Of a DNA stretch of 20,602 nucleotides, positions 4,661-19,091 are shown in pieces. Position 1 is the stretch's first letter, and each line of letters starts with the position of its first letter. Source of the stretch: a virus; the IMG/VR virus record IMGVR_UViG_3300032516_000242, positions 1 to 20,602 of that record; one strand, 5' to 3'. The translations under genes and the position numbers were made by a program. The notes beneath the pieces are model-generated. The model searched no databases. It was not told where the DNA came from and saw only the letters and a program-made list of their open reading frames with translations.

Positions 4661-4668
4661 GATAAATA
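4661..4668 (+). promoter_or_regulatory. late-promoter-like box GATAAATA
   Basis: GATAAATA sits just after the terminator and 8 nt before the ATG at 4677, at the head of the plus-strand PP-loop operon. It is the only promoter-like signal seen for that operon. Confidence 0.5.
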
Positions 4669-4676
4669 CGCATATA

Positions 4677-5123
4677 ATGATAAAAGAAATAAATTTTGAA
4701 ACTATTCTTCCTATATGGAGGGATAAGTTATGGCCTGGTCGTGTATCTGCTATAGAGACTCATAGTGCTATGCTTCATCTCTATACAGAATATGATATGG
4801 GCAACTTTTTATTACCAGTATGGTATATTGGATATTATGAAGATAACGAACTAATAGGCGTCAATAGCGGGCATATGTGTGTCGATGGTAGTGCTCGCTC
4901 GCGCGGCCTGTGGATTATGCCGGAATTCCGCAAAAACGGTCGTGGAAAACAACTTCTAGGGGCAACGATAGCAAAGGCTAGGGAATATAATGCCTCTTCT
5001 ATATGGAGTTATTCGAGAAAAACATCTTGGCCAACATATAAATCAGTGGGATTTATATTGACCTCGGATTGGCAGCAGAGCGAGACCAGTGAAGCAAATG
5101 CATACTGCTATCTAGAATTATGA
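4677..5123 (+). CDS. GNAT-family N-acetyltransferase
   Basis: This 148-residue protein is predicted to transfer an acyl group from acyl-CoA to an amine. The GNAT core is visible: RGLWIMPEFRKNGRGKQLL contains the beta4 strand and the R-x-x-G-x-G/A-type pyrophosphate loop (motif A). SYSRKTSWPTYKSVGFIL matches motif B, with the usual aromatic-lysine-x-x-GF pattern. The start is set at 4677 because the in-frame ATG at 4659 overlaps the GATAAATA box; the longer form would add 6 residues. Its TGA overlaps the next ATG (ATGA), so it opens a tightly coupled five-gene operon. The minus-strand operon also begins with a GNAT gene. Confidence 0.82.
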   Translation: MIKEINFETILPIWRDKLWPGRVSAIETHSAMLHLYTEYDMGNFLLPVWYIGYYEDNELIGVNSGHMCVDGSARSRGLWIMPEFRKNGRGKQLLGATIAKAREYNASSIWSYSRKTSWPTYKSVGFILTSDWQQSETSEANAYCYLEL

Positions 5124-5962
5124 AATATCAGTTTGATCCATTTATTTTCTATTATGATGAGGTCGATTGGCCTATCTATGATTTTAGAACAGAATGTATT
5201 ATGGCTGCACATAAGGCAGCTTCAATGAATGTGAAAGGATTGCCTATTATTGTAACAATGAGTGGTGGACTTGATAGTGAGCTTATTGCTGAATCTTTAT
5301 ATCAGGCTAAAATACCATTCCGCGCTTTGATAGGTAAATTACAAGTACAGGTTGCTACAGAAACAATAATATTGAATGAACATGATTATAGTTATGCAGA
5401 AAAATGGTGTCATAATCATGGTATCGAAATAGAATATTGTAATTTAGATGTATATAAAAATGCACAATTATTGACAGAATATTCGATATTTTCTAAAGGG
5501 TTTTCGCCGCAATATGCATGGCATATGTATCTAATGAAATATGCCAGTGATAATGGGTATTTCTTTATTTCAGGGTTAGGAGATATAGATATTGTATTAA
5601 GAAATGGCGAATATTATTGTGCCGATACACAACGAGAATGGTCAATTGATATATTCTGTGAAACTTATAATCTAAATGGAATTATTAGGTTTGTAAAATT
5701 AGATTCCCGTCTAACAGCAGCTTTTCTGGAACTGAAATCAGTAAAGAGTCTAATGAAGGATAGGGCAGAAATTTTATTGCAACATAAACATCGGTGCTTT
5801 TCTGAGGTATTTCCGAATATGGAAAATAGACCTAAATTTACAGGATTTGAAAAGATACAAGAATGGGATTCTATACTCCGAAACTATATGAAGAAGCATA
5901 ATGGGCAACACGATACCATTTCGTATATACCTATATCTTACTTTCAAACAAAGGAACTATAA
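5120..5962 (+). CDS. PP-loop (asparagine-synthetase-type) protein 1
   Basis: This is a 280-residue protein. Residues 47-53 (MSGGLDS) form a complete PP-loop of N-type ATP pyrophosphatases, which activate a carboxylate or carbonyl as an adenylate for attack by nitrogen or sulfur. The following ELIAESL helix also fits. There is no N-terminal glutaminase domain, so ammonia or another nucleophile must come from elsewhere. The region around residue 150 (FISGLGDIDIVLRNG) may correspond to the second nucleotide-site motif of asparagine synthetases. It is coupled by overlap to the GNAT gene upstream (ATGA) and to the unknown downstream (TAATG). The substrate is unknown. Confidence 0.8.
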   Translation: MKYQFDPFIFYYDEVDWPIYDFRTECIMAAHKAASMNVKGLPIIVTMSGGLDSELIAESLYQAKIPFRALIGKLQVQVATETIILNEHDYSYAEKWCHNHGIEIEYCNLDVYKNAQLLTEYSIFSKGFSPQYAWHMYLMKYASDNGYFFISGLGDIDIVLRNGEYYCADTQREWSIDIFCETYNLNGIIRFVKLDSRLTAAFLELKSVKSLMKDRAEILLQHKHRCFSEVFPNMENRPKFTGFEKIQEWDSILRNYMKKHNGQHDTISYIPISYFQTKEL

Positions 5963-6543
5963 TGTTAGCAAATTTCTTCTCTATAGGTGATAAAAATTAT
6001 CTTAACAACGCAGTTGTTATATCGGATGCATTGAATAGAATTATTGAAATTTTTGAAGATGTTAAGAACTTCAAAATTCAATTTAGAAAACCCTTCCTAT
6101 CTCAGGGAGAATTTACCGTAAGTACAAATAAACTCGATGGACATATTACCGGAGAATTTGATACAGAGAAATTTCATTTTTATTTTTCCTATTCTCCAAC
6201 CGGTATTGCCTTAGAAAATAGAACAGCTACCAGATATGATATAGAAAAAGAAATCAATCCCTTCAATATTTGCTATAATATTACCGATCATTGTCGTGGC
6301 GTTATAGAGGCAGGATTTGAGAAAGTATACGGCACCATGACTGAAAAAGATAAAGTCATCTTTGTTATATTTGAAGTGCCAGATACCTCTGTGTTTTCCT
6401 CTGTTATTAAAAATCAGATTATGCCAGCAATGCGTATAACAGAAGCCGAACAAACAGGAGATCGTCGATTCAAAATATCTGTTTATCTTGGTGATCAATT
6501 ATTGGGTTATCGTTATAGCACAGTAAAGGAATTCATTGTATGA
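5962..6543 (+). CDS. unknown protein of the PP-loop operon
   Basis: This 193-residue soluble protein has no signal peptide. AAAGGA precedes the ATG, which overlaps the previous TAA by one base. Its composition suggests a mixed alpha/beta fold, with a strand-rich middle (GEFDTEKFHFYFSYSPTGI). It ends VKEFIV with TGA overlapping the next ATG. I do not recognise the family. Its place between a PP-loop protein and an SGNH-like protein, with overlapping stops and starts on both sides, implies equimolar production and a role in the same pathway, perhaps as a partner subunit. Confidence 0.75.
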   Translation: MLANFFSIGDKNYLNNAVVISDALNRIIEIFEDVKNFKIQFRKPFLSQGEFTVSTNKLDGHITGEFDTEKFHFYFSYSPTGIALENRTATRYDIEKEINPFNICYNITDHCRGVIEAGFEKVYGTMTEKDKVIFVIFEVPDTSVFSSVIKNQIMPAMRITEAEQTGDRRFKISVYLGDQLLGYRYSTVKEFIV

Positions 6544-7403
6544 CCTATTGGAACGAAAAAGAAGATTTGCATATTCGCTTCTGGAATACGGATATATATG
6601 GAAGTTATTGGAAAATAAGACATGAAATTAATGAACAAGGATATCGTGGTGATGAATTACAATCAAGTAAGGTGATATTTCTTGGAACATGTGATATTAT
6701 GACTAATCTTACGGATAAGACACAGAGATGGTCAGAACTTGTCCATTCTAAATTACATGGAGATCAACCTTTTATTGCTTTGGGAACGGTTGCGTCGGGT
6801 TTGCCGACAATGATAAGACGATTATATTCGTATATACAAAATTTTGGTGCACCTGAATTGGTATACATGACTATACCTCGGTTCGATGGGTCTGAATTTG
6901 TAAATAAATCGGGTAATTGTTATAATGTAAGTTCCAGAGTAGGTTCAGCGAACTTCTGTAGGCGAGCAGACTTCGTTGATGATGAAGAACACACAGTTTG
7001 GCTTATGCAACTCGAAGCTAACAAGAAACTAAATAATATTCATAATATGCAATATATCCTCGAGGAGAGATTTGCATTTATTGAAACAATATGTAAAGCA
7101 AATTCAATTAAACTAAAATGGACATTTAATCCATCGGATGCTGCCATTACGGTATTGTATAGAAATCACCGAGTATTTGAACATATTAGTGACTTCATGA
7201 AAGATGCTTTTGTAGGTAATCCCGAAGTGAAAGATCAGATGTTTGATAGATCTATCGGCCCCGAAACACATAAAGAAATATATAATAAGTTTATTGGAGA
7301 TGAAAAGTGGAATTATAATAAACTATGTGAAGTAGCAGAATACAATTTCAAATGGTTGGGTCGCCAATACGGTAATGAATTAATTAAGATGGAAGAGTCA
7401 TGA
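6540..7403 (+). CDS. SGNH/GDSL-hydrolase-like protein with Cys at the nucleophile position
   Basis: This is a 287-residue protein. GYRGDE followed by KVIFLGTCDIMTNL (about residues 34-57) resembles block I of SGNH hydrolases (GYRG...LGDSxT), but the nucleophile position carries Cys51 rather than Ser. GTVASGLPTMIRRLYSYI fits the Gly-containing block, and DRSIGPETHKEI (Asp236, His244) may supply the acid and base. Family members hydrolyse or transfer acyl esters. No signal peptide is visible, so it acts in the cytoplasm. It is coupled to its neighbours by a GTATGA overlap upstream and ATGA downstream. A catalytically altered transferase, thioesterase or binding protein are all possible. Confidence 0.55.
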   Translation: MTYWNEKEDLHIRFWNTDIYGSYWKIRHEINEQGYRGDELQSSKVIFLGTCDIMTNLTDKTQRWSELVHSKLHGDQPFIALGTVASGLPTMIRRLYSYIQNFGAPELVYMTIPRFDGSEFVNKSGNCYNVSSRVGSANFCRRADFVDDEEHTVWLMQLEANKKLNNIHNMQYILEERFAFIETICKANSIKLKWTFNPSDAAITVLYRNHRVFEHISDFMKDAFVGNPEVKDQMFDRSIGPETHKEIYNKFIGDEKWNYNKLCEVAEYNFKWLGRQYGNELIKMEES

Positions 7404-8311
7404 TTTATACCTCCGAAAATAATTGGTATAGTTGGCAATATGGTGATGATGAATTATTCGGTAGGCAAACCGGCGGCCTCGCCTTTAAAACTCGATATTC
7501 TAAATATTATGGTCATGTTGATAATTTTGGTAATGAGTTGCAAAAGGCCGCAAAAAGTACACTAGATTATTTTCCGGATTTGCGACCGTCTATTCTTTTT
7601 AGCGGTGGCTCAGAAAGTGAAATCGTATTAAGGACGTATATTAATATTGGTGCAAATCCTAATGTTTACATAATAAGATATGAGGACGACATTAATATTG
7701 TTGATGTGAGTTATGCAATTGCTATATGTACTTCCCTTAATATTAAATATAATCTGATAGATTTTAATATTAAGAAATTTTACGAAAATGATGCAGAAAC
7801 TATTTCCGAACAAGCCCAAATTGATGTTCCTGCAGCATTACCGCAACTAAAATTTCTTAATTATGTAGAAGGATTGCCCATTTACTGTTCGGGCGACCAA
7901 TCATGGTATAGAACACATGATAATTATAATATTCGCGGAACCTGGATTCTTAAATGCTATGAGCACGATGCCGGATGGTCAAAGTATATTCGTTATATTA
8001 ATCGTCCAGCTATAGGAGAGTGGCTTAAATGGACACCCGGATTAGTGTTGTCTTATATCGACCTTAACTGGTTTAAAAAATTAATTAACGACGAATATTA
8101 TGGTAAATTGGGTGTTAATTCTACTAAACTAATAGGTTATAGAGAAGCATACCCAGATTTAATTGCCAGGCAAAAATTAACAGGAATGGAAACTATTCGT
8201 CCATTGATTGACGAATTTAAAGCATTTTTGGAAAAGAAATATCAGGGATTACCTTACCGTAATGAAGTTGTACGCACGCTCGAAGAACTTCGGAACGAAA
8301 TTACTGGATAG
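7400..8311 (+). CDS. PP-loop protein 2 with altered loop (SGGSES)
   Basis: This is a 303-residue protein. ILFSGGSESEIVLRTY (residues 65-80) aligns with the PP-loop of protein 1, but the canonical Asp is Glu72 (SGGSES instead of SGGLDS). A later YCSGDQSWYRTHD may match the second nucleotide-site motif. It may be a reduced-activity or regulatory partner of protein 1; the Glu could still bind Mg2+. It is coupled to the SGNH-like gene by ATGA and is the last gene of the plus operon, converging with the TctC gene (3' ends overlap by 11 nt). The family is inferred from motif and neighbours. Confidence 0.7.
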   Translation: MIYTSENNWYSWQYGDDELFGRQTGGLAFKTRYSKYYGHVDNFGNELQKAAKSTLDYFPDLRPSILFSGGSESEIVLRTYINIGANPNVYIIRYEDDINIVDVSYAIAICTSLNIKYNLIDFNIKKFYENDAETISEQAQIDVPAALPQLKFLNYVEGLPIYCSGDQSWYRTHDNYNIRGTWILKCYEHDAGWSKYIRYINRPAIGEWLKWTPGLVLSYIDLNWFKKLINDEYYGKLGVNSTKLIGYREAYPDLIARQKLTGMETIRPLIDEFKAFLEKKYQGLPYRNEVVRTLEELRNEITG

Positions 8312-9233
8312 GAACAAGTTTTAATTGATTTGTGAATTTTGTTCGCTCTTCCTGAGCAAATTTTCTAAAATCTTCGGAAGTGGTATTAGAAGGCATAGGA
8401 AATATGCCTACTTTCTTAAATTTTTCCTGTAACTGTTTATCTTCTAAGATATGAGTTAGCATATTATTGTGCGAAGCAACAGTTGTTTCATCTGTTCCGG
8501 GTCCTGTAACAAACCCAAACATAGTAGAATCCTCAAGTATATTGGGTACAAATTTTCTTAATTTAGGATACTCCTTAAGTTCGTCGGCATCGGCACCAGC
8601 ATTTGCCACGATACGAACGAGACCACTAGATACCTGAGATTGAATTGTAGTATATGGAACAAACGCATAATCTACGTGTCCGCCCATCACATCTATAACA
8701 GCGGGTCCGACACCCTTATATTCGGCAATAATGGCATTTTTAGAGTCTGTCTCTTTTATAAGAAGAGATGATAATATTCTTAAACCTAATGCGCCGGATG
8801 CAAATGATACAGGTTTGCTAGATTTTAAATCGCCTAGAACCTCTGGTAATGATTTTGTATTCTTTGGATTTGTAATTAATACATTTGGTGTAAATCCGAC
8901 CATTTTTATATATGTTAGAGTTTGTGGATCAAATTTTCTAACTTCGTCTAGACTTGGAATAATTGAATAGGCATACTGTGCCTGACTGGTAATGCAAATG
9001 AGATTTTTATCGTCGACCCTCGAGACACATTCATTCATACCGATTATACCACCAGCACCTGCCTTTATCTCAATTGCATTTTTATATCCTAATTTAATAC
9101 CGGTTTCGGAAATTAATTGACCCACGATATAATTTCCACCACCGGGTGGAAATCCAACAAGTATTGTAAGATTATCGGCATACGAATTCATTGCTAATAC
9201 CGTAAGCACAGCAAGGAGGATTTTTTTAATCAT
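8301..9233 (-). CDS. TctC/Bug-family periplasmic solute-binding protein
   Basis: This is a 310-residue protein, close to the usual length for the family. An N-terminal signal peptide (residues 1-20, ending NSYA) is followed by LVGFPPGGGNYIVGQLI, the hallmark first motif of tripartite-tricarboxylate-transporter binding proteins, and GAGGIIGMNECVSR, the second. GVGPAVIDVMGGHVDYAF fits the later conserved helix and ligand loop. Relatives bind carboxylates or small amides in the periplasm and deliver them to TctAB. The start is supported by TGGAGAATC just before the ATG. No membrane subunits are nearby, so it would use a host TctAB, act in sensing, or serve another role. It is unusual cargo for a phage. 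Confidence 0.9.
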   Translation of the reverse strand: MIKKILLAVLTVLAMNSYADNLTILVGFPPGGGNYIVGQLISETGIKLGYKNAIEIKAGAGGIIGMNECVSRVDDKNLICITSQAQYAYSIIPSLDEVRKFDPQTLTYIKMVGFTPNVLITNPKNTKSLPEVLGDLKSSKPVSFASGALGLRILSSLLIKETDSKNAIIAEYKGVGPAVIDVMGGHVDYAFVPYTTIQSQVSSGLVRIVANAGADADELKEYPKLRKFVPNILEDSTMFGFVTGPGTDETTVASHNNMLTHILEDKQLQEKFKKVGIFPMPSNTTSEDFRKFAQEERTKFTNQLKLVPIQ

Positions 9234-9258
9234 GATTCTCCAGAATAAATTATATGTA

Positions 9259-9266
9259 TATTTATT
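9259..9266 (-). promoter_or_regulatory. late-promoter-like box AATAAATA (minus strand)
   Basis: Read on the minus strand this is AATAAATA. It ends 25 nt before the ATG of the TctC-type gene, leaving room for its leader and TGGAG ribosome site. It faces away from the plus-strand box at 9295. Confidence 0.4.
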
Positions 9267-9294
9267 TAAATATTTGTTCTTATAAGTATCATTT

Positions 9295-9302
9295 GATAAA
9301 TA
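9295..9302 (+). promoter_or_regulatory. late-promoter-like box GATAAATA
   Basis: The plus-strand box lies 20 nt before the ATG at 9323. A GGGAG ribosome site (9310-9314) lies in the transcribed leader, giving normal promoter and RBS geometry. Confidence 0.5.
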
Positions 9303-9322
9303 GTTTAAATGGGAGAATTATT

Positions 9323-9640
9323 ATGATTCAATATACAAGATCTTATACAAGACCAAGTACATTAGTGGCCTGGTGGTTTGAAGTTACATTAGCTGTTCCT
9401 AGATCAGTCTTTCATGACAGGATGATAGCAGCATATTATGCTACAGGAAAAGTACTCTCAGAGGATACAGTAATATCTCCGGACGGATTAACACTTACCT
9501 GGACAGGAATCTGGGAAAGTGAAGCAGCATTTAACGAATATGATATTGATTCTGTCCTAAATACATATTGGGTACTTAAAGACGATTACAATACATCAGT
9601 GGATATCATTAAGGGTCCGCTAGGAATTCAAACAATTTAA
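9323..9640 (+). CDS. small unknown protein, possible dimeric alpha/beta-barrel fold
   Basis: This is a 105-residue protein starting MIQYTRSYTRPS. The start at 9323 is set by GGGAG 8-12 nt upstream; an earlier in-frame ATG (9254) would add an implausible leader across the promoter box. The alternating pattern TLTWTGIWESEAAFNEYDID is like the strand-helix units of antibiotic-monooxygenase or EthD-type dimeric barrels, but this is weak. It is the only plus-strand gene inside the minus-strand block, and its stop overlaps the stop of the PP-loop 3 gene. It could be a separately regulated member of the same pathway. Confidence 0.7.
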   Translation: MIQYTRSYTRPSTLVAWWFEVTLAVPRSVFHDRMIAAYYATGKVLSEDTVISPDGLTLTWTGIWESEAAFNEYDIDSVLNTYWVLKDDYNTSVDIIKGPLGIQTI

Positions 9641-10551
9641 ATTTTCGTTAAGCACGTAATTGGCTTATTCCTGAATTTATTTTTATTCATTGATCGCATA
9701 TACATTCTTATTTCATAATTAGATTCCAGTGAATCTTCCCAATTTGTAGTCTTGTAATTGAATATCAGGTCGGGCCAGAGAGTATCGACTAGAACGCGGG
9801 TATCTATTCTTTTATTTTCTTTAACCATTAGTGGATGATGAAAATAAGATCTTAATAATAACGGTGACGAAGCATAAAAGTACATTTCACATGCTCGGTG
9901 ATTCGTTAGAGCCCATTGTCTATAATAAACTTCTGTAATGCTTATCGGTATGCCATTATACGAACCGTTGCTATTAGCTAAAGATTCGTAATCCGGCCCA
10001 CTTTTTTGTGGATCACCCTCGCCGCCTATAATATAGGTATTAAATGGAATTCTTTCTAGTAGGTATGGCAGGCATAGATATGTTGGCTTTTCTGCCTGTA
10101 AATTTTTGTAATTTTTTTCTAGTACAGAATCAAATGCTTCTTCCTTTGATAAAGAAATTACATTGAGTTTTGTACCTAACTCGGCTGCTAGATCTTGAGA
10201 CATTTTTAATGCCCGTGAATTAATATTCCAAATATCTAGAAACCATAATTCAAATGGTATTCCTTGTGTTGCTGCTTCTCTAGCAATAATTTCACTGTCG
10301 GCCCCTGATATACAAATAGAGAGGGGCATGTTAGCCGAGCTGTGTAAATCTGTAATTGTTTTTCTTATTGCATACTTTAAATCAGATGTAATTAAGTCAT
10401 CATCTATAGTATATGTAAATTCGAAAGAACTGCCATCTATATTAGAAATTGGTGAAAAATATTCTTTATTAAATGACCACCGTACATGTCTTGGAACGGA
10501 TAAACACACGTTTCGAGAATCTTTGTTATCGTAATCTATTAGTCGAGTCAT
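9637..10551 (-). CDS. PP-loop protein 3, degenerate loop (SGADS)
   Basis: This is a 304-residue protein. ICISGADSEIIAREAA (residues 79-94) resembles the PP-loop of protein 1 (SGGLDSELIAESL) with one residue missing, so nucleotide binding may be changed. IIGGEGDPQKSGPDY later in the chain resembles the GEGADE-type second motif of asparagine synthetases. The lengths and loop positions of proteins 1-3 are similar, so they are probably paralogues. Its ATG overlaps the TGA of the AsnB-like gene upstream in the same operon (ATGA). No glutaminase domain is present. The substrate is unknown. Confidence 0.72.
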   Translation of the reverse strand: MTRLIDYDNKDSRNVCLSVPRHVRWSFNKEYFSPISNIDGSSFEFTYTIDDDLITSDLKYAIRKTITDLHSSANMPLSICISGADSEIIAREAATQGIPFELWFLDIWNINSRALKMSQDLAAELGTKLNVISLSKEEAFDSVLEKNYKNLQAEKPTYLCLPYLLERIPFNTYIIGGEGDPQKSGPDYESLANSNGSYNGIPISITEVYYRQWALTNHRACEMYFYASSPLLLRSYFHHPLMVKENKRIDTRVLVDTLWPDLIFNYKTTNWEDSLESNYEIRMYMRSMNKNKFRNKPITCLTKI

Positions 10552-11627
10552 TCTTTGTTAATTTCTATATTTTGAATTCTATATATTCTGTTGTCTTCGA
10601 TACCTAATGCATTATATTTGTATGTACCTGTTACAAGTATTCTGTATAGCGAAGGAACCTTTATCTTTGTTGTTGTATAATTACCTAAATCTATGTATTT
10701 TTCTATAAACAGTCTTGATGCCAGTTTATGATTATACCTGCTTGGCGGTGATCCCCATTTAGGCATATTTCCAAATAATGATAGAATTTGAAAATCTGGA
10801 GTATTGAAAAATGTATCAAATATTTTCAATTCAGAATCGTGTGTTATGACATCCAGAAAGTTAGTAAAGCACAATGTTCTTAATGCAACAGATTGCCATT
10901 TGCATGAAAAATTTAACCACCACCTCAGGTCTGCCATTGTGTTAAGTGGTACGGTAGCATTTTCTACTAAATTTCTTAGGACTCTATGTAAATATGGTTT
11001 TGCTGTTTCATTTACCTTACTGATAATAAACATTTTTTCAATATTATCTTCGTTTATTTCCTCGTCAAAGAAATCCATGACATGGTGTAGAAGTCCGCCA
11101 CCAAATAATTGATCGGCATTTTCCCCCATAACATATCGATCGACGGTTGTATTTGGGTTGTTTATATTGTCTAATGCCGTATTTGCTGATGTAAGTTTAA
11201 AATATGGAAGAATGATTTTATTCCAGAATTTTGGATTTTCGATAATAGAATGTTGGCTAGCAGCAATTGTAATTTGATTGTAATTTCCTATACCGTTTTG
11301 TATTGCAATCCAGAAACTAAGAACAACAACGGTACTATCCAGGCCACCACTATAGAATATAACTATATCTTTACTTTCCTTCAATATTTCCTTGGCTCTG
11401 TTAATACATACTTCATCATAGCGGAGATTAATCGGGCCTTCGGGCTTCGGGGGAATGCCATATAGTATTTTAGTCTCAAATGGGGTTTCTAATGCATTAC
11501 TTCTGTCGATCAGGCTTGCGTTAGGACTAACAATCTTAAATAATTCACAAAAATCTAATAATTTCTTGTTTGATTCCCGTTGAGCTTGTTCTTTTAAAAA
11601 CAAGGGCATATAATAGATAATTTTCAT
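10548..11627 (-). CDS. asparagine-synthetase-like (AsnB C-domain) PP-loop protein 4
   Basis: This 359-residue protein is the most canonical of the four. IVIFYSGGLDSTVVVLSF (residues 88-105) is a full PP-loop, and GENADQLFGGGLLHH (168-182) matches the G-E-G-A-D-E-L-F-G-G motif of asparagine synthetase and beta-lactam or lasso-peptide cyclase relatives. These enzymes adenylate a carboxylate and form an amide. The N-terminal ~85 residues are not a glutaminase domain (no Cys2). Starts and stops overlap with both neighbours (ATGA at 10548 and 11624), so it is translated with them. Amide formation with free ammonia or an amine donor is the most direct prediction. Confidence 0.85.
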   Translation of the reverse strand: MKIIYYMPLFLKEQAQRESNKKLLDFCELFKIVSPNASLIDRSNALETPFETKILYGIPPKPEGPINLRYDEVCINRAKEILKESKDIVIFYSGGLDSTVVVLSFWIAIQNGIGNYNQITIAASQHSIIENPKFWNKIILPYFKLTSANTALDNINNPNTTVDRYVMGENADQLFGGGLLHHVMDFFDEEINEDNIEKMFIISKVNETAKPYLHRVLRNLVENATVPLNTMADLRWWLNFSCKWQSVALRTLCFTNFLDVITHDSELKIFDTFFNTPDFQILSLFGNMPKWGSPPSRYNHKLASRLFIEKYIDLGNYTTTKIKVPSLYRILVTGTYKYNALGIEDNRIYRIQNIEINKE

Positions 11628-12232
11628 ACCTGTCCTATTCTAACAGTTTCATTAATAACCGTGGTTTTCCAGGCTAAGAATTCTTGCTCAGTCTCAACAA
11701 GTCTTAATGAATTACTATATTTCCAAATTAGTGTTTGTTTTCTGAAGTGTACTGATAAAAGAGATTCGGCTAGGAAATTAAGATGTTTACTGGCAACCTC
11801 AAAACTCATATTCATGCACCGAGCATATTCTGTAATATATTGTACCTTGTGCTGATAAAACATCGGTAAATCATCGGTAGTAAGGTCGCTTAGGTTATCA
11901 TATGAGCTACCGACTATTGTTGCCTGTTCGAGCAGAAGATAAAACCCTTTTGCTAGCCTTTGGGCAATTTCACGTTTCTTAATTAATTCCGGAGTTATTG
12001 TACCGGTGTATTCGGAAAATTGTCCTGTACCGTAGTGATAGATCCAATATTGATCGGTAAACCAATTTTGATTTACACTCCTTGTCATATAATCTCCGTA
12101 TTGTACAGCCGATGTATCAAGAATACTACTTACAATAAATTTTACAGTTTCATTTGATCTGGAGGAATACAAGATAACATCTGTTGCTCTATCAGCAACA
12201 AAACTCATTCCAAAATAGTTTATATGTAACAT
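11624..12232 (-). CDS. unknown protein of the minus PP-loop operon
   Basis: This 202-residue protein appears soluble and mostly alpha-helical in its second half (KKREIAQRLAKGFYLLLEQA), with several aromatic residues. No signal peptide or catalytic motif is recognised. It lies 1 nt downstream of the secreted protein gene and overlaps the AsnB-like gene through ATGA. It is comparable in size and operon position with the 193-residue unknown in the plus operon, but similarity is not obvious by eye. It could be a partner or carrier subunit for the PP-loop enzymes. Confidence 0.72.
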   Translation of the reverse strand: MLHINYFGMSFVADRATDVILYSSRSNETVKFIVSSILDTSAVQYGDYMTRSVNQNWFTDQYWIYHYGTGQFSEYTGTITPELIKKREIAQRLAKGFYLLLEQATIVGSSYDNLSDLTTDDLPMFYQHKVQYITEYARCMNMSFEVASKHLNFLAESLLSVHFRKQTLIWKYSNSLRLVETEQEFLAWKTTVINETVRIGQV

Positions 12233-12233
12233 T

Positions 12234-12611
12234 TTATTTTATCATTGTCGTACAAAGTTTTTCTGTAATAGGTACCAATTCGGGATCAATTTTAGAAAAT
12301 TCTTTAGCACTCATTGTTGTGGCTATTTCTTCGTTGTTTTTGAATAGTTTGTGGTGTGTATTGGTTATAGGATTAAATACTTCTGTCAGGGTACGTCTAT
12401 GCAGTTTCAATTTACAATCCACTGTGACAATAAAAAAGCCGATTGTATTTTTTGGGGCAATCGTATCATCTGTATATTGTTTTGTTACAAAGAAAACTAT
12501 TCTTGGATCGATTAAAAGCGGCATATATCCGTCTTTATTAACAAGTTCGATTTTATGTGCATGCGCTGTGGTAGATAATGTTAATAGCAAATATATTAAT
12601 ATTTTCTTCAT
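12234..12611 (-). CDS. small secreted protein, unknown
   Basis: This is a 125-residue protein. MKKILIYLLLTLSTTAHAHK is a textbook signal peptide with cleavage after AHA, so the mature product of about 106 residues is periplasmic. It has at least two Cys (VDCKLKL and EKLCTTM) that could form a disulfide. No family is recognised. It is the second gene of the minus operon, 8 nt from the GNAT stop. With the TctC-type protein this makes two exported proteins beside the PP-loop enzymes, suggesting that uptake or an envelope step is involved. Confidence 0.78.
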   Translation of the reverse strand: MKKILIYLLLTLSTTAHAHKIELVNKDGYMPLLIDPRIVFFVTKQYTDDTIAPKNTIGFFIVTVDCKLKLHRRTLTEVFNPITNTHHKLFKNNEEIATTMSAKEFSKIDPELVPITEKLCTTMIK

Positions 12612-12619
12612 AATTTACT

Positions 12620-13078
12620 TTAAGATAATTTTTTGCTCATTCGGTAGAAATCACCAGTTCTTCCTGCTTTTTCGCAGGACTTAATGCTGGCTATATTATT
12701 TACATGAACTAGTCCCGTAATATAATTTATTCCAGCTTCTTTTGTTAACTTTTCTAATTCGATATGACACATGGAATAAACATCCAATCCTCTCCACGCT
12801 GGATCTGTAAAACTTAGCAATATCCAATTTTGTAGAACACCAAATTGATATTTATAATAACATATTCCGCCAATGGGAATTTCATCACATTCAGCCCAAA
12901 TAACTTCAGCTGTGTTGAAGATTCCTACTCCATTTTCTATAGCAAATCCCTTTTCTATTAATTCTGCCGATGCCCTGAGCATTATTGGTGTTGCCCTGCA
13001 TTCTGTAAGTCCGTTGCTGTAGAAGATCTTAGCAATTTTTCCATTCTTAAGAATAGCATCTTCTTTTAGAATTCTCAT
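12620..13078 (-). CDS. GNAT-family N-acetyltransferase 2
   Basis: This is a 152-residue protein. The start at 13078 is preferred because GGGGA (in AATGGGGAAT) lies just upstream; an in-frame ATG at 13093 would add five residues. The fold is indicated by AEVIWAECDEIPIGGICYYK (beta-turn-beta), then SFTDPAWRGLDVYSMCHIEL, where WRGLDVY takes the acetyl-CoA loop position, and ITGLVHVNNIASIKSCEKAG, the typical GNAT motif B with Asn and KAG. It opens the minus operon under a GATAAATA box (13109-13116), mirroring the plus operon. Substrate unknown. Confidence 0.8.
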   Translation of the reverse strand: MRILKEDAILKNGKIAKIFYSNGLTECRATPIMLRASAELIEKGFAIENGVGIFNTAEVIWAECDEIPIGGICYYKYQFGVLQNWILLSFTDPAWRGLDVYSMCHIELEKLTKEAGINYITGLVHVNNIASIKSCEKAGRTGDFYRMSKKLS

Positions 13079-13108
13079 ATGTATATTCCCCATTAAACTA
13101 TGTTTTTA

Positions 13109-13116
13109 TATTTATC
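13109..13116 (-). promoter_or_regulatory. late-promoter-like box GATAAATA (minus strand)
   Basis: GATAAATA read on the minus strand, 30 nt before the GNAT start at 13078 and the only promoter-like signal of the minus operon. It is back-to-back with the plus-strand box at 13181, forming a divergent late-promoter pair. Confidence 0.55.
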
Positions 13117-13207: not shown

Positions 13208-13594
13208 ATGTGGTTATCATTATTGACAAATAAATATGTTTTAATGGGTATTGCTATTGCTGTACTCGGGGCATACATTTTCTTCTTGAGAAGTAATTTA
13301 CAAACCTGCGAAGCAGAAAAGAAAACACTTGAGGCAGAATTAGCAGTTTCGCAAGCGTCCGTTAAAGGTCTGCAATTGGCAATTACAGAACAGAATTCGG
13401 CAATTGAAAAAATGAAGACTGATGCTGATACCCGTGAAAAATCACATCAGCAAGAAATTACTAAAGCAAAAGTCAAGGCCGATGGATTTAGGAAACAAGC
13501 CGCTGATTTATTGAAAAGAACCATTCCACAAAATGTATCAAGATGCGATGCTGCAAATATTATAATCAATGAGGAGCTTCAGCGTGTTAAATAA
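13208..13594 (+). CDS. i-spanin (Rz-like)
   Basis: This is a 128-residue protein. A short N-terminus is followed by a single transmembrane segment (about residues 10-27, MGIAIAVLGAYIFFL). A long periplasmic coiled coil comes next (CEAEKKTLEAELAVSQASVK through HQQEITKAKVKADGFRKQAA). This N-in, C-out layout is that of Rz, the inner-membrane spanin that disrupts the outer membrane at lysis together with an Rz1 lipoprotein. The overlapping lipoprotein gene at the 3' end confirms the pairing. Good ribosome site CGGAGA; late-type box upstream. Confidence 0.88.
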   Translation: MWLSLLTNKYVLMGIAIAVLGAYIFFLRSNLQTCEAEKKTLEAELAVSQASVKGLQLAITEQNSAIEKMKTDADTREKSHQQEITKAKVKADGFRKQAADLLKRTIPQNVSRCDAANIIINEELQRVK

Positions 13595-13856
13595 ACTTAT
13601 AATTACCGCAATGGTAATTTTTCTGGGTGCCTGTGCTACCGATGGACCTGTAATTAGTACAGTGATTCAGAAGGTTGAAGTACCTATTGCTGTTCCATGT
13701 AAAGCAGAAGTTCCATCTAAGCCAGATTTTAGTTTTGATAAGGCTACCGCTGAACAAGATATATTTGAAAAATCAAAAGCTTTATTGGCAGATAGAAAAT
13801 TACATCTTGGATACGAGGAAGAGCTGTTAGCCGCCTTGGATTCTTGCATCAAATAG
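13584..13856 (+). CDS. o-spanin (Rz1-like lipoprotein)
   Basis: The GTG at 13584 is chosen because GAGGAG lies 8 nt upstream, giving 90 residues beginning MLNKLIITAMVIFLGAC. An ATG at 13569 would add five residues and lose that spacing. The lipobox LGAC places the mature N-terminus at Cys17. The chain has a proline-containing segment (VPIAVPCKAEVPSKPDF) and a helical end. It overlaps the Rz-like gene by 11 nt, an arrangement typical of overlapping Rz/Rz1 pairs. It acts in the outer membrane at the last step of lysis. It ends in TAG. Confidence 0.85.
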   Translation: MLNKLIITAMVIFLGACATDGPVISTVIQKVEVPIAVPCKAEVPSKPDFSFDKATAEQDIFEKSKALLADRKLHLGYEEELLAALDSCIK

Positions 13857-14977: not shown

Positions 14978-15085
14978 ATGAAAAGACTTTTGGAAATTCG
15001 TGCCGCGGAAGGCGGAGAAGATAGTGCCTTATTTACAAAGGATTTAGCACAAGCATACCAACGACATTTTGATCGCGTAGGCTGA
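14978..15085 (+). CDS. RF1-like release factor, N-terminal part ending at in-frame UGA
   Basis: From ATG 14978 (AAGAGGT just upstream), 35 codons read MKRLLEIRAAEGGEDSALFT and KDLAQAYQRHFDRVG, then TGA. LEIRAAEGGEDSALF is the start of the release-factor domain 2 signature (I-E-I-R-A-G-x-G-G-x-E-A-x-L-F in RF1). In bacterial RF1 the residue after this helix is a conserved Trp (GW or RW), exactly where TGA stands. Downstream the same frame continues through 8 codons into the rest of the factor at 15110. The first ~100 residues of normal RF1 (domain 1) are absent. Confidence 0.82.
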   Translation: MKRLLEIRAAEGGEDSALFTKDLAQAYQRHFDRVG

Positions 15086-16199: not shown

Positions 16200-16340
16200 G
16201 TTGGTAGCGAAAGGGGAATGTAAGAGTACCGTATCGTAAGGGTGAAAGCCCCCTAGACCCGGTACCGCCAGCAATTATTGTTGTATGAAGTTGATAAAAA
16301 GAGGTTCCGGACGGGAGTTCGATACTCCCCATCTCCACCA
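16200..16340 (+). ncRNA. ssrA: permuted tmRNA, acceptor piece
   Basis: This half ends in CATCTCC-A-CCA (16330-16340) and carries a T-arm GGGAG-TTCGATA-CTCCC (16313-16329). CATCTCC pairs with GGGGATG at the start of the coding piece (16359-16365), with G-T at pair 3-70, the alanine identity signal required for charging. Because the CCA-bearing half precedes the 5' half, the gene is circularly permuted, as in alphaproteobacteria, cyanobacteria and some betaproteobacteria. Bases 16341-16358 are the intervening loop, with CCGTA/TACGG (16346-16360), removed to give two RNAs. The 5' end is placed from the promoter and is approximate. Confidence 0.87.
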
Positions 16341-16358
16341 ATTAACCGTACCAGATAC

Positions 16359-16572
16359 GGGGATGAAATGGCTTCGACGGGGCAATGAGTATTGAGATGG
16401 ACAACACGGTAGGCGATGACCGTAAATCAAGCAAAACTCGTAAATGCAAACGCAAATACAACCGAGACAGTAGCACTTGACCTATCAGCTTTGGCTGACA
16501 GCGATATGATGCTTCTAGCTGCCTAAGAAACAGCAGTCTCCGGGGTAGGATATACCTTGTAAACCAAAACAC
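16359..16572 (+). ncRNA. ssrA: permuted tmRNA, coding piece with tag
   Basis: GGGGATGAAATGGCTTCGAC (16359-16378) is the classic tmRNA 5' end. An ACGGT/ACCGT hairpin (about 16405-16423) may be part of the first pseudoknot. The open tag frame begins with GCA at 16446 and ends in TAA at 16524-16526. In ribosome rescue this RNA enters stalled ribosomes with SmpB (not seen here) and adds a degradation tag. The 3' end is not precise; the piece ends before the terminator at 16573. Confidence 0.87.
16446..16526 (+). other. tmRNA proteolysis-tag reading frame
   Basis: There are 26 sense codons: ANANTTETVALDLSALAD then SDMMLLAA, then TAA. It ends in LLAA, fitting the hydrophobic LAA-type C-terminal degron. 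It is longer than most bacterial tags (roughly 8-15, some longer). The first codon GCA (Ala) fits a normal resume codon; the exact resume point is inferred. Confidence 0.7.
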
Positions 16573-16598
16573 CATGGGCCTTCGGGCCCATTTTCTTT
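16573..16598 (+). terminator. rho-independent terminator after tmRNA
   Basis: ATGGGCC-TTCG-GGCCCAT is a 7-bp stem with a stable TTCG tetraloop, followed by TTTCTTTT. Confidence 0.95.
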
Positions 16599-16617
16599 TA
16601 CAAAATTATTTGTGAGA

Positions 16618-19016: not shown

Positions 19017-19091
19017 GCGCTGGTAGCTTAATGATAAAGTACGAGCCTCTAAAACTCAGGGTTGTGGGTTTGATTCCCACTCAGCGCACCA
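19017..19091 (+). tRNA. tRNA with anticodon CTA (amber suppressor)
   Basis: The acceptor GCGCTGG/TCAGCGC ends in A73-CCA. The D-arm is GCTT/AAGT, the variable loop GGGTT, and the T-arm GTGGG-TTTGATT-CCCAC. All segment lengths are canonical, which fixes positions 34-36 as CTA (19049-19051) in loop CTCTAAA, the same loop as classical amber suppressors. The anticodon stem CGAGC/ACTCA has C-A mismatches at 27-43 and 31-39. It would insert an amino acid at UAG; which one cannot be told from the sequence. Confidence 0.82.

Follow-up and report, generated by a model that had tools for sequence, protein, structure and literature searches.

A recurrent type of exchangeable phage island built from PP-loop genes and coupled partner genes

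What does a dense block of PP-loop and acetyltransferase genes do in a fragment of phage DNA? The question is raised by the IMG/VR record IMGVR_UViG_3300032516_000242, which was analysed over its complete length of 20,602 bases and is called the window here. Judging from its genes (endonuclease V, an HD hydrolase, Rz/Rz1 spanins, clustered tRNA genes and a permuted tmRNA) and its late-promoter-like boxes, the window appears to come from a lytic T4-type phage infecting bacteria. The block encodes four PP-loop proteins (PP1 to PP4), two GNATs, a TctC-type carboxylate-binding protein and a protein termed U2. An earlier reading of the DNA, termed the original prediction, saw in it two mirror-image operons of a single pathway. 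We found that the block is one version of a recurrent, apparently undescribed type of exchangeable phage island. Our favoured reading, held tentatively and at slightly less than even probability, is that such islands carry cassettes, expressed late, whose genes would make an amide-type product with the use of ATP, probably from acyl chains or carboxylates.

Scans that started from PP1, PP3 or the SGNH-motif protein alone gave no relatives and the first ones came from the TctC scan; alignments built from the TctC contigs then yielded 28 PP2-type loci and 212 relatives of a further PP-loop family, PPb, with 79 loci kept. Gene calling, which was mechanical, and clustering gave 112 loci forming 75 independent groups in these first searches, and several hundred viral relatives of PP3 (family PPc) were found in addition; distant family members were profile-checked in part. 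Over the 112 loci we counted 150 PPb genes, 118 genes of PPa (the family of PP1, PP2 and PP4) and 91 TctC genes (45 groups), partner density being biased upward because the loci were found through PP-loop genes. The original prediction had named two outcomes that would sink a single pathway, unrelated folds and no co-occurrence in other large phages. Both were checked and neither was observed; profile comparison joins the PP-loop families, and the same gene families stand together in up to 45 groups. Among named phages, only Pseudomonas phage Cygsa01 is a relative, and no close DNA or protein match was found. The search for a bacterial source turned up PPb relatives on five contigs only, four of them Bacteriovoracales metagenome-assembled genomes with a different gene context. 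In one non-phage member, a Bacteriovoracaceae genome (L116:7977-9658), the PPb relative and a methyltransferase gene are coupled, and genes resembling spermidine synthase and HTTM lie nearby, the HTTM call coming from sequence reading only. The T4 Gp23 capsid protein scored above cut-off in 16 of the 48 related contigs tested (28-353 kb); the window is too short to show it.

Exchange of cargo is visible in the viral locus L016. Its GNAT1, PP2 and PP1 orthologues are 67%, 55% and 46% identical to those of the window, and its Rz/Rz1 pair 46% and 69%. Between these common flanks, L016 carries a B12 radical SAM gene, two TctC genes, two PPb genes and two further PPa genes. The two phages thus hold different cargo at one insertion site. 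The features of the window's island are:

4661-4668, plus strand: GATAAATA late-promoter-like box before GNAT1, kept before the L016 orthologue (at 1713-1720)
4677-5123, plus strand: GNAT1, acetyltransferase-like (PF00583, E 5.4e-9)
5120-5962, plus strand: PP1, putative AsnB-type PP-loop protein, family PPa, loop SGGLDSE
5962-6543, plus strand: U1, no relative found
6540-7403, plus strand: SGNH-like by the motif FLGTCD only, no profile match
7400-8311, plus strand: PP2, AsnB-type PP-loop protein, family PPa, loop SGGSESE; 31 locus groups have an orthologue
8301-9233, minus strand: periplasmic carboxylate binder of the TctC/Bug type, N-terminus like a signal peptide (PF03401, PDB 7ndr; viral relatives 40-43% identical)
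9259-9266, minus strand: AATAAATA promoter-like box before TctC
9295-9302, plus strand: GATAAATA box before the ABM5 gene
9323-9640, plus strand: small protein (105 aa) of family ABM5, which has 70 genes in 32 locus groups; no relative in the PDB comparison
9637-10551, minus strand: PP4, PP-loop protein, family PPa, of a clade with a loop one residue shorter, SG-xDSE
10548-11627, minus strand: PP3, PP-loop protein, family PPc, SGGLDS and GENADQLFGG
11624-12232, minus strand: U2, of a family directly upstream of PPc genes
12234-12611, minus strand: small protein, signal-peptide-like N-terminus as read from the sequence
12620-13093, minus strand: GNAT2, family f23 (PF00583, E 0.0037; 13 genes in 9 groups)
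13109-13116, minus strand: GATAAATA box before GNAT2
13208-13856, plus strand: Rz/Rz1 spanin pair, right flank in common with L016 (phrog_739, E 1e-6)

All ten genes of the original prediction are present with their strands and ATGA-type overlaps, and both GNATs hold (E 5e-9 and 0.004). Gene gaps are -4, -1, -4 and -4 in the plus operon and -4, -4, +1 and +8 in the minus operon, where the 4-base overlaps fall between PP4, PP3 and U2. The gene list was nevertheless incomplete: the ABM5 gene at 9323-9640, behind its own GATAAATA box at 9295, had been overlooked. This plus-strand gene separates TctC, which has its own AATAAATA box, from PP4. The mirror image does not reflect descent, since PP1, PP2 and PP4 form three deep PPa clades and PP3 belongs to PPc. 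The SGNH-like call for 6540-7403 is suggested by its motif and backed by no profile.

The term late-expressed is drawn from the GATAAATA boxes, which look like T4-type late promoters. Eight are seen in the window against 2.4 expected. They precede both GNAT-led operons, as predicted, and are not special to these, since other genes have them too (536, 4407, 13181). Across all loci, a box of this type precedes 99 of 304 operon-leading island genes and 128 of 939 other leading genes.

The PP-loop signatures are those originally read: canonical SGGLDS in PP1 and PP3, altered in PP2 (SGGSES) and PP4 (SG-ADS). The proteins have 280-359 aa and, in line with the original prediction, Pfam and NCBIfam scans found no glutaminase domain in any of the four. 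PP1, PP2 and PP4 are joined in PPa through intermediates and PP3 clusters in PPc; profile comparison joins PPa, PPb and PPc at E 1e-8 to 1e-9, PPc only around the loop. A strict SGGxDS loop is present in 95/118 PPa, 144/150 PPb and 16/18 PPc proteins. Conserved positions of PPa are the S-G-G-x-D-S-E loop, N99, G163 and C-terminal K243, K259 and E264; the C-terminal lysine presumably resembles the catalytic lysine region of AsnB. The proposed asparagine-synthetase-type fold was borne out for PP2, whose structure model (46 sequences) has a predicted local distance difference test (pLDDT) score of 96.7. In the PDB, PP2 comes closest to asparagine synthetase B (1ct9, E 1.6e-5) and beta-lactam synthetase (1mc1, E 4.9e-5), with template modelling (TM) scores of 0.37-0.48 on the query, and its best match among viral models is an uncultured-phage protein (TM 0.88). 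The PP3 model, which is not good enough to settle the fold, had no PDB match below E 0.001.

Cysteines bear on the chemistry. A CxxC motif occurs in 0/46 PPa, 1/50 PPb and 0/8 PPc proteins, and no cysteine column exceeds 54% in PPa or 24% in PPb, which speaks against thiolation, sulfur transfer and QueC chemistry. QueC and thiolase identities are disfavoured by these counts. An AsnB-like fold with the conserved positions above, and with neither glutaminase domain nor Cys pair, would fit carboxylate adenylation followed by amide formation.

The original prediction also suggested complexes of active and inactive paralogues. This agrees with the PP4 clade, which keeps its one-residue-shortened SG-xDSE loop in 4/4 members (branch support 0.998) and is paired with a canonical PPc in 3/4; such an arrangement may represent an active/degenerate pair. 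It does not extend to PP2. The D-to-E change of its loop is restricted to the window and a few relatives, and because most orthologues have SGGVDS, inactivity as a trait of the PP2 lineage is ruled out.

Two kinds of partner are coupled to the PP-loop genes. The first is TctC. The gene at 8301-9233 had been described as an exported protein of no assigned family; its N-terminus is of the exported type, and the protein is a TctC/Bug member, matching PF03401 over its whole length (E 8.4e-16, 58.7 bits against a cut-off of 27) and PDB 7ndr (E 1.6e-19). By a crude test, signal-like N-termini are found in 81/85 TctC family proteins. In three viral contigs a TctC protein 28-43% identical to that of the window is encoded directly behind a PP-loop gene. 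Overall, a PP-loop gene lies directly upstream on the same strand for 41/91 TctC genes, mostly with a 4-base ATGA overlap. After de-duplication this adjacency was counted 26 times, against 10.3 +- 2.7 when gene order was shuffled within islands (maximum of 2,000 shuffles, 21). TctA/TctB permease genes were not recognised in the gene lists of the loci, in which no search was aimed at them, and the host could supply them; a SUP05 virus contig with a tctA match has been described (PMC4164917). Other islands (L112:2441-3400 and family f32) encode TRAP-type DctP solute-binding proteins that have no signal peptide (0/14) and so would be cytosolic. As TctC is signal-like and DctP is not, metabolite binding may outweigh import. 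DctP matches in phage collections look like bacterial contamination. In L107:14899-16775, the gene behind a TctC gene encodes a protein like malonyl-CoA acyltransferase (PF00698, E 1.5e-24).

The second partner is U2. A separate PPc scan returned 448 relatives in viral contigs, and a U2-like gene lies directly upstream of PPc in 72/94 cases (57 independent groups). U2-like genes fall in three groups that profile comparison connects (E 5e-8 to 2e-16), the window's U2 among them; scans of U2 itself gave nothing significant in PHROGs and, at E 1, nothing in Pfam. GNAT2-U2-PPc stands in this order also in L152, L154 and L170, and the longer series GNAT2-U2-PPc-PP4, adjoining ABM5 and PP2, is found again in L011/L130. 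The window's minus operon is therefore a conserved cassette, into which the secreted-type gene at 12234-12611 appears to be an insertion. In Cygsa01 (L005:7688-9837), two genes annotated as MnmA are PPc family members directly behind tail-fibre-type genes, which makes the annotation doubtful.

This coupling also suggests protein or peptide modification, in which PPc would act on a carboxyl group of U2 or of a virion protein presented by U2. Besides the translational coupling itself, C-termini are conserved in one U2 group, asparagine-synthetase-like enzymes act on peptide C-termini (PMC13060819), the Cygsa01 pair stands behind tail-fibre-type genes, and parallels exist in lasso peptide and nitrile RiPP (ribosomally synthesised and post-translationally modified peptide) pathways and in the QueC-like Cap9 of cyclic-oligonucleotide-based anti-phage signalling systems (CBASS). 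However, U2 has about 200 aa with no obvious leader/core split, no protease, RiPP recognition element or transporter was identified, an ATGA overlap by itself constrains the last codon, and desaturases and TctC are left unexplained. We consider this explanation unlikely, though worth keeping in view.

The amide reading draws its substrate class from neighbouring enzymes. Fatty-acid desaturases number 139 genes in 42 groups and occur in 38 of the 45 PPa groups; in 17 of the 31 groups with a PP2 orthologue, a fatty-acid hydroxylase or desaturase precedes it on the same strand. Other island families are GNATs, B12-type and SPASM radical SAM proteins, fatty-acid hydroxylase, P450, Rieske, Asp/Arg hydroxylase, TauD-type (2-oxoglutarate, 2OG) oxygenases, nitronate monooxygenase-like proteins, DctP and acyl carrier protein (ACP). 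Some relatives add ketoacyl synthase, AcpS, ACP, acyltransferase, ATP-grasp and a weak AMP-binding match. Because partners and neighbours are carboxylate binders and acyl-chain enzymes, the PP-loop enzymes probably act on carboxylates or acyl chains. The original prediction had called the substrate not deducible and nucleic acid one candidate; the neighbours narrow the choice and make nucleic acid less likely. In the viral contig L032:12366-20833, AcpS, ATP-grasp, ketoacyl synthase, seven desaturases and ACP adjoin the island, a set that resembles a polyyne-type biosynthetic cluster.

In the mechanism that we favour, the island would be transcribed late from GATAAATA-type promoters in large T4-type phages, and its core would be a set of AsnB-type PP-loop enzymes that lack a glutaminase domain. 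Most likely, each of them would bind ATP and adenylate a carboxylate, which an amine or ammonia would attack to give an amide. Each class would work with its own coupled partner: PPb with TctC (which in the window lies beside PPa and PPc enzymes), PPc (PP3) with U2 plus a PP4-type companion of altered loop, and the PP2 class with acyl-chain desaturases or hydroxylases. TctC most likely catches a carboxylate in the periplasm, and an amine would be acylated by the GNATs. What the island yields late in infection would be either a small metabolite of the amide or acyl-amide kind or a lipid, and we infer that all island genes may serve one pathway.

Several observations weigh against this proposal. 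The AsnB-type activity is a prediction from sequence and model, the AsnB fold matches of PP2 are partial (TM 0.48 on the query) and the PP3 model is weak beyond the PP-loop core (pLDDT 66). Since the loci were collected by way of PP-loop genes, shuffling cannot correct for all of the ascertainment bias. Desaturase, hydroxylase and PPb genes are all absent from the window, and gene sets differ widely among phages, as those of unrelated cargo in a hypervariable region would.

Unlinked cargo, gathered by a hypervariable region like the pelagimyophage host-recognition cluster and serving no single pathway, is improbable to much the same degree as protein modification. The strong variation would be expected, tail-fibre, tRNA or spanin genes are found close to islands, and radical SAM, desaturase and 2OG genes are known singly in phages (PMC7029224, PMC7678222). 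Against it, ATGA-coupled pairs repeat, the same families recur together, and the gene orders FAH-PP2-PPb-TctC and GNAT2-U2-PPc-PP4 are conserved. Envelope remodelling, in which the island would alter host membrane lipids or the surface to block superinfection or aid lysis, is more doubtful again: desaturases, fatty-acid hydroxylase, a possible SGNH protein, exported proteins, the adjoining Rz/Rz1 and the late promoters fit it, but no dedicated glycosyltransferase set was seen, TctC and multiple PP-loop proteins are unexplained, and the window lacks lipid enzymes. Least probable, and very unlikely, is tRNA or nucleic-acid modification by enzymes like MnmA, TtuA, TilS or QueC with GNAT and radical SAM help, to which weak MnmA, QueC and TtuA matches around the PP-loop, the 15 tRNA genes flanking the window's island and tRNA arrays beside many related islands point, as the catalytic Cys or CxxC is missing, AsnB is the best full-length fold match, 25 of 50 scanned loci have no tRNA or tmRNA gene, and desaturases and periplasmic TctC do not fit.

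The surroundings of the island show further features. The window has 15 clustered tRNA genes and one more, and islands adjoin phage tRNA arrays in many, not all, contigs (L002:16547-19002, L003, L006-L008, L037, L069 and others). A circularly permuted phage tmRNA of betaproteobacterial type (16240-16617, plus strand; Rfam RF04321, 131 bits; RF01850, 93 bits) is a hint at the host. A tRNA with anticodon CTA (19017-19091, plus strand), called Pyl by ARAGORN and present also in L010 and L022, is a possible amber suppressor. A release-factor-like phage gene (14978-15646, plus strand; GGQ motif GTGAGGQHRNK) is interrupted at 15083-15085 by one TGA in frame, and the sequence before and after it is release-factor-like with the frame unchanged; read-through control, recoding or a broken gene would each account for it.

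More speculatively, and less probably than the amide reading as such, large T4-type phages may carry a modular machinery for small-molecule biosynthesis, in which each PP-loop amide ligase and its dedicated binding or presenting partner (TctC, cytosolic DctP or U2) are swapped as cassettes and some versions reach fatty-acid/polyyne-like chemistry (L032). Phages would then make their own natural products during infection. To our knowledge, virus-borne small-molecule biosynthesis pathways are little known. If the enzymes are active, large phages would produce their own metabolites or lipids, and substrates would be found for an orphan group of amide ligases; the PP-loop families and U2 have no described Pfam family and no functional assignment in PHROGs. 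PPb-TctC and U2-PPc-PP4 are clear units for testing. Literature searches found no described PP-loop/TctC or PP-loop/U2 gene set, and as their coverage is incomplete the novelty is provisional.

Among known systems, the hypervariable host-recognition cluster of pelagimyophages and cyanomyophages resembles the islands in being variable, T4-type and equipped with radical SAM or desaturase genes; the portions of that report consulted describe no PP-loop/TctC/U2 cassettes (PMC7029224), and the flanks of the window's island include GNAT1 and Rz/Rz1. TctC/Bug solute-binding proteins match the window's TctC in their whole-length PF03401 domain and signal peptide. In contrast to these, phage TctC is coupled to PP-loop genes, TctAB was not recognised beside it in the gene lists, and related islands carry DctP without a signal peptide. 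The QueC family, including Cap9 and QatC (PF06508), is a further case of PP-loop enzymes at work in the conflict of phages and bacteria, with QueC-like enzymes serving in defence against phages (PMC13279940, PMC11996544); unlike them, island PP-loop proteins reach PF06508 only below threshold (E 0.009-0.1) and have no Cys motif. The lasso cyclase McjC and the RiPP nitrile/amide synthetase PesC parallel PPc-U2 as an asparagine-synthetase-like enzyme with a small partner protein, and such enzymes do related chemistry on peptides (PMC13060819, PMC5067487). They seem to differ in that no precursor peptide, B protease or transporter was recognised with PPc-U2 and U2 has about 200 aa. Finally, the AsnB C-terminal domain and the beta-lactam and carbapenam synthetases differ from the island proteins, which lack a glutaminase domain, reach no Pfam family, are about 10-12% identical to them and come as several paralogues with dedicated partners. 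They have in common the PP-loop, the fold and, as predicted for the island, ATP-dependent amide chemistry, which the lactam enzymes carry out with no need of a glutaminase.

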